From Bacillota bacterium (GTDB lineage: Bacteria > Bacillota > SHA-98 > Ch115): a DNA stretch of 64,000 nt. The stretch covers positions 135,369 through 199,368 of the forward strand of contig JABLXA010000005.1 of NCBI GenBank assembly GCA_013178415.1, in the 5' to 3' direction. Below are positions 4,498-42,626 of the stretch, piece by piece (the first letter of the stretch is position 1; the number at the start of each line of letters is the position of its first letter). The notes under the pieces are model-generated. The model saw only the letters and a program-made list of their open reading frames with translations. It made no database searches and had not been told where the DNA came from. Made by a program: the position numbers and the translations under genes.

Positions 4498-6096
4498 ATG
4501 GCCTCGAATATTGGGGAACTTTCATCATTGATCAAGCAGAGATTGAACCTAGATGAGAATGTGCTGGAGACCTATGAAGCTGGATGGGTGATCGAGGCCG
4601 GAGACGGTATCGCCAGCGCTTATGGGCTAATGAGGGCCATGGTCGGGGAACTGGTGGAGATTGGAGAAAGAGCCACAGGTATGGTCCTCAATCTTGAAGA
4701 GGATCGCATAGGGATCGTTCTTCTTTCCTCAGACACTCAAGTAAAAGAAGGAGATCCAGTCAGGAGCACCGGGCGCACCGTTTCTGTTCCAGTCGGAGAT
4801 AGCATCATCGGGCGTGTAATCGATCCTCTCGGCCGTCCCGTAGATGGCAAGGGACCAATCAACACAACAAGATATCGGCCTATTGAGGCCCCTGCTCCGG
4901 GAATAATCCACCGGGAACCTGTACATACTCCACTGCTAACCGGCATCAAAGCCATCGATGCCATGGTTCCCATCGGCAAAGGGCAGAGGGAATTGATAAT
5001 CGGCGATAGACAAACGGGTAAAACGGCGATTGCGGTGGATACCATCATAGCACAAAAGGGCCAGGGGGTCATTTGTATCTATGTGGCAATAGGCCAGAAG
5101 ACATCTACGATAGCGCAGATTGTCAGGACTCTGGAGGATAATGGAGCCATGGATCACACGATCATTGTGGCCGCTCCCGCCAGTGAGCTTGCTCCAATGC
5201 AGTATATTGCGCCTTACGCTGGCTGCGCCATTGGCGAGGAATTCATGTATAATGGCAAGGATGCCCTTATCATATATGACGACCTGTCAAAGCACGCCAT
5301 AGCCTATAGAGCCACATCACTACTGCTGCGTCGTCCTCCCGGGCGCGAAGCATTTCCTGGCGACATTTTCTATATACATTCCAGGCTCCTCGAGAGATCG
5401 GCCAAGCTTTCCCCGGAATTGGGAGGTGGCTCTCTTACCGCCCTGCCCATAGTGGAAACTCTAGCTGGCGATGTATCAGCCTATATTCCCACAAATATCA
5501 TCTCCATTACTGATGGGCAGATCTATCTTGACAGCGAGATCTTCTTTTCGGGGATAAGACCCGCCATCAATGTAGGGCTTTCCGTCTCACGTGTGGGCGG
5601 CGATGCCCAGATACCTGCGATGAAGAAAGTTGCAGGCAGGCTAAGGCTCGACCTGGCACAATATCGTGATCTCGCCACATTCGCCAGGTTCGGCACAGAG
5701 TTGGATGAGGCCACAAAGAAACGTTTGGAGAGAGGCAAACGTATAGTAGAAGTCCTGAAGCAACCTCAGTACCAACCGCTCCCGGTAGCAGAGCAGGTAG
5801 CCATCATATTCGCAGTAATCCGCGGATATCTAGATGACGTCGATGTAGAGTGGATCGAGGATTTTGAGCACGAGTTTCTACAATATATGCGAAGAAACAA
5901 TGCTGATCTCCTGCATGATATAGAAGTTGCAGGTGAATTAGATGAATCATTGGAGGATCGCCTGAAAAAGGCCATAGAGGAATTCAAACCGAAATTTCTA
6001 GCAATAGCGAAAACCAGGGAGCCTGCCGGGCCGCAGGTTGCCTCCCGCATTCAGCCGCAGGGGGATGTGGAACGGCAGGTAATTCAAGGGGCCTAA
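4498..6096 (+). CDS. atpA: F-type ATP synthase subunit alpha
   Basis: A 532-aa non-catalytic nucleotide-binding subunit of F1. The P-loop GDRQTGKT lies at residues 169-176, and the family signature [14 protein letters not shown] is present, including the Ser-Arg pair that supplies the arginine finger. The C-terminus is somewhat longer than the common ~505 aa, ending in a hydrophilic tail. Unusually, atpG does not follow directly: 825 bp of repeats and hairpins intervene. Confidence 0.96.
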
Positions 6097-6112
6097 GCGT
6101 GGCTAGGTGATG

Positions 6113-6404
6113 GTGATACTGTCCCGTCGGACGCGACAGTCCTGGGGAGTGGATACTCCTCTCGGCGGACGCAGCGTGATCGTGGAATGGGTGCTCCTCG
6201 CCATCGGACGCGGCCCTGCTGCGGGGCCGCTCAGTGGTCCTCGACCCTCGAGTAATAAGGTCTCGGACCAATGCCGATGGGAGGAGCACCCTAACCCCGA
6301 GTCCATCAGCCTTGGATCAAAGCCGCTGGGCTGGTATCACCCATCCCCGAATAGCTGCTTCCTTGGTTGCAGTAGAGCCTCGGACCAATTCTTGGGCAAT
6401 TAAA
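6113..6404. repeat. Structured segment after atpA with inverted repeats and GTGG-headed units
   Basis: This is the first part of the long gap between atpA and atpG. Three units beginning GTGATAC, GTGGATAC and GTGGAATG (6113, 6149, 6182) each contain CGGACGC. Nested hairpins are visible: an 11-bp near-perfect repeat (6118-6128 with 6130-6140), GGAGT/ACTCC (6146-6159), and a long outer stem (6189-6207 with 6274-6291, one unpaired base). The outer stem encloses two inner hairpins, GCGGCCC/GGGCCGC (6210-6230) and TGGTCC/GGACCA (6235-6270), which together would fold as a three-way junction. Open frames across it look non-coding. It could be an RNA element or a decayed mobile repeat. Confidence 0.7.
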
Positions 6405-6818
6405 GTGGTGGGACGGATTCTGGGCAGGTTCCGCGTGGAAGTGACCAGAAATTCGTCAGCTCCCTCGCCGAGGTGGCCATACTATCGTCAGATTAGGGAG
6501 ATTCCGGAAAATTCTGGGCCTGAATTCTCCCCAGGTGACGAGAATTTAGGCAGATTTTGCTCAAGGGTGGTCAGAATTTGACCAGCTTCTGGCCCAGAGT
6601 GGCGAATTTCCTGTCATCTTGCCGTCAAGTTGGAAAATTATAGGCTATGATTATCCATAATAAGGAAGTCTATAGGGCATTTTGGACGAAGGTGACGGTA
6701 TTTTAGTCAGCTTAAGCGTGAAGGTGGCAACAGCCTAGGCAGGCTCTGCTCTAAGGTGGCGAAAATCTGGGCACCTCAGTCCCAAGGTGAAGAACTCGAG
6801 GATAGAATCATCCGACGA
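6405..6818. repeat. Degenerate ~32-bp tandem repeat array inside the atp operon
   Basis: About twelve head-to-tail units of 30-32 bp fill this stretch. Most begin GTGG or GTGA; unit starts include 6441, 6473, 6535, 6567, 6599, 6692, 6724, 6756 and 6787. Several intervals are exactly 32 bp (6441-6473, 6535-6567-6599, 6692-6724-6756). A loose core GAATTT then CAGCTT then TGC can be followed through most units. Identity between units is moderate, and there are no unique spacers flanked by constant repeats, so it is not CRISPR. A 32-bp period is not a multiple of 3, which argues against coding repeats. The function is unknown; it must be transcribed if atpG-D-C share the atp promoter. Confidence 0.75.
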
Positions 6819-6921
6819 TCTGCATAGTCGGGAGAATTGCCGGGGAATGGGATAATAGATGCAACATCATACCGCATGTTCTAAGTTTGAGTTTGCCCAT
6901 TTACAAAAGGAGTGGCTATAT

Positions 6922-9332
<2,411 letters not shown>

Positions 9333-42280: not shown

Positions 42281-42626
42281 AATAACCCCGTCTCCGGATA
42301 AGAGACGGGGTGAGATACTTCCCTCGCGGTACCACTCTAGTTGACCAACTATGGCCCACTCATCAAGACACAGGTAAAAACGCCCTATGCTCTGGACGAT
42401 TTCCTATGCCTTCCCCTCATAACGGTGGGATCCGTCGCAGCCTACCGGGTTACTATTCCTCCCCTTTAGGCAGGTATCCGGGCTCTTGTAACCTTTGGGT
42501 GCGAAACTCACAGGCGAGTTCGAGACGCACCGGTTGCCACCTTTCACCATACGGCGGCTCTCTGGTAACCTATGATGCCCCTCTTTCTCCTGTTCATAGC
42601 CTCTGATATTTTCTTGTGGTTTTATT
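42281..42626 (-). promoter_or_regulatory. Leucine T-box riboswitch leader of leuS
   Basis: The minus-strand leader holds the conserved T-box sequence AGAGTGGTACCGCGAGGG (42321-42338). A terminator stem CCCCGTCTC/GAGACGGGG (42286-42294 with 42302-42310) is followed by TTATTTGTC. Stem I shows the distal features GGTGAAAGG and AGAGAG. The likely specifier is CUC (42516-42518) in GAACUCGCC, a leucine codon followed by a purine. Uncharged tRNA-Leu should stabilise the antiterminator and switch leuS on. Confidence 0.93.

Follow-up and report, generated by a model that had tools for sequence, protein, structure and literature searches.

The gap between atpA and atpG

The window, the whole stretch of 64,000 nucleotides analysed here (contig C5:135369-199368 of a 3.57-Mb draft genome), contains two ATP synthase genes separated by an unusually long intergenic gap. 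The upstream neighbour of the gap is atpA, which encodes the alpha subunit (4498-6096, forward strand; an ORF of 532 aa) and whose product is 80% identical to the alpha subunit adjoining atpG in G001, a genome of the same family. Downstream lies atpG, encoding the gamma subunit (6922-7875, forward strand), which likely starts at 6922 rather than at position 6859 of the ORF list and is preceded by a Shine-Dalgarno sequence, AAAAGGAG (6905-6912, forward strand), unaffected by the insertions. Between the end of atpA at 6096 and the start of atpG at 6922 the gap measures 825 bp, compared with 82 bp in G001, the sole same-family genome compared, and 9 bp in four relatives from the same class. About 740 bp have therefore been gained in this lineage, and the excess length reported by an earlier, sequence-only reading of this DNA is real.

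Within the gap no terminator-like or sigma-70-like promoter match was found and, since atpG also retains a ribosome-binding site of its own, read-through of the operon is probable. An Rfam scan of the gap returned no family, either at the gathering threshold or at E ≤ 1. A second F-type ATP synthase operon lies at L055 (C18:63418-67071), its gamma subunit showing about 33% identity, and the window also carries a T-box leader (RF00230, 98 bits) at 42298-42606 on the reverse strand.

The sequence-only reading had described the gap as filled by one repeat of about 32 bp in two subfamilies. When the gap is searched against its own genome, positions 1 to about 300 of the query (element A) and about 311 to 690 (element B) match different sets of loci; the gap holds two unrelated dispersed non-coding repeats side by side, rather than one degenerate array. 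Autocorrelation at lag 32 exceeds shuffled sequence across the interval originally described, 6113-6818 (z = 4.6), and is strongest in 6405-6800 (z = 7.8, a value reached by none of 500 dinucleotide shuffles), whereas 6097-6404 has no periodicity at 31-33 bp (z from -1.0 to 1.1). The proposed periodicity thus holds for B and fails for A. Because it is confined to B, the parts bearing CGGACGC and GAATTT-CAGCTT, taken for subfamilies of one repeat, are different dispersed elements. Tandem Repeats Finder, run on the window, reported nothing in the gap, as the B units have diverged too far. The two elements repeatedly lie close together in one intergenic gap (window 6097-6800; L302, L303, L304), and gaps holding both look like insertion islands.

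Fold, copies and relatives of element A

Element A (6097 to about 6395, forward strand) contains the CGGACGC part and is a multi-copy dispersed repeat of nested palindromes around a three-way junction. The 5' arm of its outer stem, GGTGATGGTGATACTGTCCC (6106-6125, forward strand), is predicted to pair with the 3' arm, GGGCTGGTATCACCCATCCC (6328-6347, forward strand; the pairing is approximate to the base), and the RNA fold of the element as a whole is far more stable than that of shuffled sequence (z = -4.2). The inner core of 108 nt (6187-6295, forward strand), matched by model R1 at C5:141555-141663 with 122 bits, consists of an outer stem and two hairpins, GCGRCC..GGYCGC and TGRTCC..GGAYCA. 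Nested complementary stems are common to the A copies, while the stem sequences vary from copy to copy. Among 29 model matches, 94% of cells are paired, 30 of the 36 pairs have changed on both sides, and the covariation score is 0.44 against 0.17 ± 0.01 in shuffled alignments and no more than 0.10 when the partners are slid. Being fitted to model R1, that alignment leans towards the structure, but the controls with slid partners agree, and so does an independent alignment of eight copies, in which 15 of 36 pairs are compensatory. Covariation backing a common fold, the test for a structured RNA, is therefore present, and compensatory changes have preserved the fold, a three-way junction in nested stems.

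With model R1, about 20 strong copies on the sense strand are found in the own genome, nine in G002 and one, a partial match, in G003; the latter two genomes belong to another family of the same order. No matches were found in G001 or in 27 further genomes. In G002 the core sits within elements of about 232-235 bp, several of them about 96-97% identical, which end in CTAAGTTAGTGCGCAAAAATC...GATTTTTGCGCACTAACTTAG, inverted over about 21 bp with the pattern C-TA...TA-G. Element A is thus the body of a MITE in this related genome. Elements of the IS630 type insert into C-TA-G, and by this analogy the ends in G002 would fit such insertion. Unlike these relatives, the own-genome copies showed neither common ends nor clear conserved termini. 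The spread of A may have been driven in trans by a DDE transposase with an IS630-like CTAG target. One IS630-like (DDE_3) gene is present in the own genome, on contig C26, and no DDE_3 match was found in G002. The IS630-like element on C26 (L202) appears to have CTAG on either side, CTAGTAGTCAGTTCG...GCTATACTAG. A search of viral contigs for the motifs of A and B gave no matches.

In the own genome, at least one gene 3' end adjoins 18 of 19 A cores, and cores in co-directional gaps are mostly in the sense orientation (nine sense, three antisense). This setting bears on the idea that A and B set subunit ratios as functional cis-regulatory RNAs in the atp operon, whether by attenuation or through mRNA processing or stability. 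Lying between atpA and atpG, both would be transcribed; A folds far beyond shuffles with a covarying structure, and its copies are mainly found directly 3' of genes. However, the copies adjoin unrelated genes in gaps of every orientation (convergent, co-directional and divergent), the relatives of the same family and class lack A and B at the atp locus, and the gap is devoid of Rfam and terminator matches. Nothing found ties either element to ATP synthase, and we regard such a role as improbable. The earlier proposal of a transcribed RNA that sets the ratio of alpha to gamma-beta is likewise unsupported, given the unrelated neighbours of other copies and the relatives that run the operon without A and B. 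The best reading is that the insertions are no ATP-synthase control element; an effect on mRNA folding, on stability or on the ratio of alpha to gamma and beta is possible and would be modest at most.

Element A is an uncatalogued structured palindromic element whose fold is conserved between families of one order. As a marker, it may help to trace how elements of this type become nested and come to rest 3' of genes, a core energy operon included.

Register and mode of change of element B

Element B (6405-6785, forward strand), delimited by BLAST, alignment, autocorrelation and a period fit, is an array of phased 17-bp pseudo-palindromes with the unit consensus TGGCGAAAWTTTCGYCA. Its palindromes in the gap, given without strand, include TGACCAGAAATTCGTCA (6442-6458, alignment column 20), TGGCCATACTATCGTCA (6474-6490), TGGTCAGAATTTGACCA (6568-6584, alignment column 146), TGGCGAATTTCCTGTCA (6600-6616, alignment column 178) and TGGCGAAAATCTGGGCA (6757-6773). 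The most conserved part of B is an AT-rich stretch, TTGGAAAATTATAGGCTATGATTATCCATAATAAGG (6631-6670, forward strand), mostly invariant across 14 copies. A tail follows (6786-6900, forward strand), part of which recurs, with 78% identity over 54 bp, at the B locus L294 and also, judged by eye, at L303 and L296a; tails are common to some loci, and a leader is common to L295, L298 and L300.

The units run head to tail at a constant period, as in a tandem repeat, and the palindromic sites stand in helical register, as in a phased operator array. Across 21 arrays and 296 sites, against 19 sites in mononucleotide shuffles, the period is 31.45 bp (bootstrap 95% interval 31.40-31.55; coherence 0.82). 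In B-DNA at 10.5 bp per turn, three turns amount to 31.5 bp. The motif GTG[GA]C occurs 144 times in 14 arrays where 14 are expected, and 80 of its spacings are 31 or 32 bp, compared with 0.03 expected. Blocks of 157 bp comprising five units recur, and the order of units is identical in all copies. Near-identical repeats with unrelated spacers, as in CRISPR, were not seen; the units are diverged throughout and the whole block is homologous between loci, so the exclusion of CRISPR in the sequence-only reading stands.

At least 22 B arrays are present in the own genome (41 model matches), all of them between ORFs. The search for further arrays that the earlier reading had called for was otherwise empty: the model has no matches in 60 relatives, nor were any found in the phages and plasmids searched. 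Every B copy has stops in all six frames. A degraded gene for a repeat protein might be suggested by the 63-bp doublets, which are divisible by three, but with these stops, and with nothing coding in the gap of relatives, a coding remnant is refuted for practical purposes. The earlier judgement that these are not coding repeats is borne out, and the finding that would have refuted the earlier reading, a homologous coding gene across the gap in relatives, was not made.

The copies of B change in an unusual way. In 19 aligned cores, drawn from two subfamilies that differ by as much as about 35%, about 1,050 inferred substitutions are accompanied by one internal indel (+2, in L022), a count stable across gap-opening values of 0.8, 1.53 and 3. 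The A cores of the own genome, by comparison, show seven gap patterns per about 291 substitutions (Fisher p = 2e-4). The 19 cores were chosen for a full-length core match, leaving out the more diverged or partial arrays L310, L311 and L313, and the selected set understates indels, because L311 and L313 carry some: the alignment of L310 is free of gaps along 203 bp, L311 has gained one unit (32 bp) and, in a second insertion, about one turn (11 bp), and L313 has five small indels with a net change of +1. The indels in these left-out arrays mostly keep the register. BLAST with permissive gaps gives 3.6 gaps per 100 mismatches for B and 10.7 for A; the alignment counts are preferred, because such scoring opens spurious paired gaps.

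Constraint is also visible within the unit. Diversity at the palindrome arms is 0.165, as opposed to 0.33 elsewhere, a difference unmatched by any circular shift of the mask, although this conservation is partly circular since the arms were used to recognise units. Unlike in A, no covariation between arms was detected beyond that in shuffles between copies of the same unit. This bears on whether the units (GTGGC...GCCAC) are RNA hairpins forming a repeated protein-binding RNA scaffold. Each unit could form a hairpin of 4-8 bp, and the RNA fold of B is somewhat more stable than shuffles (z = -2.3). Against this, covariation within units is absent, A-C mismatches equal G-U pairs in frequency at one arm position, the covariation term of RNAalifold is small, and RNA would have no need of a fixed 31.45-bp register; hairpins are accordingly an unlikely explanation. 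The scarcity of indels, the conserved arms and the lack of covariation favour phased recognition of DNA over RNA hairpins.

The simplest account of B would be a double-stranded palindrome recognised in helical register. B may act, or may once have acted, as double-stranded DNA, its palindromes serving as pairs of half-sites for a putative dimeric protein and all facing the same side of the helix; substitutions outside the half-sites would be tolerated, and most length changes would not. The stronger claim, that B is a chromosomal DNA scaffold on one face of which such a protein assembles, with its register under strong selection, is put forward tentatively. The earlier suggestion of a DNA-binding scaffold survives to the extent that phasing at three turns, conserved arms, few indels and the absence of arm covariation are compatible with it.

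An equally tentative alternative holds that B is neutral DNA propagated by error-prone, indel-poor copying, for instance through RNA, so that its phasing is ancestral and unselected. B copies (window 6423-6785 and its copies) have a transition/transversion ratio of 2.5, compared with 1.2 in A cores, and since B is transition-rich a mechanism that makes substitutions without indels is conceivable. The single unit order in all copies and passive hitch-hiking within a CTAG-bounded unit of 827 bp, described below, also speak for neutral copying. It sits less well with palindrome arms half as variable as the remainder, with a length held even across subfamilies about 35% apart, and with indels of 32 and 11 bp in L311 and a net +1 in L313, which are close to whole helical turns.

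Dispersed intergenic repeats are generally regarded as drifting debris. B separates two constraints, its letters being free and its length fixed, a pattern that a phased protein-DNA lattice predicts and that neither coding nor RNA folding explains. If the scaffold were real, it would be of a new kind, consisting of tens of intergenic arrays in which a 17-bp palindrome is locked at three turns and whose core sequence has diverged by about 35% while its length stayed virtually constant.

Origin of the insertions and known repeat families

One B copy has moved recently inside a larger unit. A block of 827 bp, bounded by CTAG and including a B array, occurs at C8 and C4 (L016/L017) with 99.8% identity and different flanks, and pieces of a third copy lie at the contig ends C7 and C14. 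By eye, the ends of this unit resemble those of a CTAG-bounded MITE of about 118 bp on C9, C18, C32 and C54, most of which makes up its 3' end; copies of this MITE, CTAGGAGATTGCTCGAAAACTC...GAGTTTCCGAGCATATTCCTAG, lie at L235:1501-1617, L233, L234 and L232. Local alignment of the outer 120 bp of the 827-bp unit for terminal inverted repeats found only a chance-like 12-mer. Among B loci this unit alone has inverted-repeat-like ends, and most other copies lack sharp common ends. As CTAG-bounded units of 827 bp carry arrays, B can hitch-hike, and it may have been carried partly as their passenger.

Arrays of the B1 subfamily occur in gaps of all three kinds, convergent, co-directional and divergent. 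Of the eight B2 arrays, six (L306, L307, L308, L311, L312, L313) occupy divergent gaps, where B1 arrays mostly do not lie, though these numbers are small. The neighbouring genes, read by eye, are varied and ordinary, with no common kind. Of two B2 loci compared, L262 (reverse strand, about 1795-1981) carries about 186 bp that L264 lacks at the corresponding position, which may be a small insertion into the tail of the element.

With moderate confidence, we conclude that two dispersed non-coding repeats of mobile type, both belonging to this lineage, inserted into the gap and filled it, and that they are tolerated within an operon; the atp gap is the one site at which an empty counterpart was compared. 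The expanding non-coding repeat family envisaged in the sequence-only reading is supported for both elements, each being multi-copy and dispersed in the own genome, with one B copy recently duplicated. At the atp operon A and B would be tolerated passengers. Their location, as operon-gap insertions, is ordinary; what is unusual is the evolutionary mode of B.

Several known systems resemble one or the other element. The relatives of A in G002 are like IS630/Tc1-mariner MITEs, as they start with CTA, end with TAG and have inverted ends of about 21 bp. Structured RNAs in Rfam share with A a conserved covarying fold, but A matches no family at E ≤ 1. REP/BIME elements, which are mobilised by RAYT (Y1) transposases, are likewise palindromic, mainly 3' of genes, clustered and nested; A differs in its larger junction core and in the covariation of all its stems (PMC2817692). 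REP/BIME with RAYT is excluded as the family of A by the lack of a Y1 transposase gene (PF01797, IS200/IS605-like RAYT): there were no matches in the own genome and three relatives, while positive controls were detected.

The pneumococcal BOX elements are likewise modular repeats dispersed between genes; the number of their middle units varies, their transcripts are predicted to fold, and they occur inside operons. They form one modular family as opposed to two unrelated ones, and no sequence relation to A or B is shown (PMC3049150). In the portions of these sources drawn upon, phase locking and a near-absence of indels as in B are not described for BrickBuilt, BOX or REP/BIME. The nearest kind to B is BrickBuilt, a Porphyromonas gingivalis minisatellite inside a MITE, with units of 23 nt and a reported 0-6% indels within elements (PMC4596501). 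B differs from it in its palindrome-based units of 31.45 bp and its core almost without indels. Both number about 20 intergenic copies within a single lineage, and both are degenerate tandem arrays in which the number of units varies; leader and tail parts and a link to inverted-repeat ends may be further common traits (PMC4596501).
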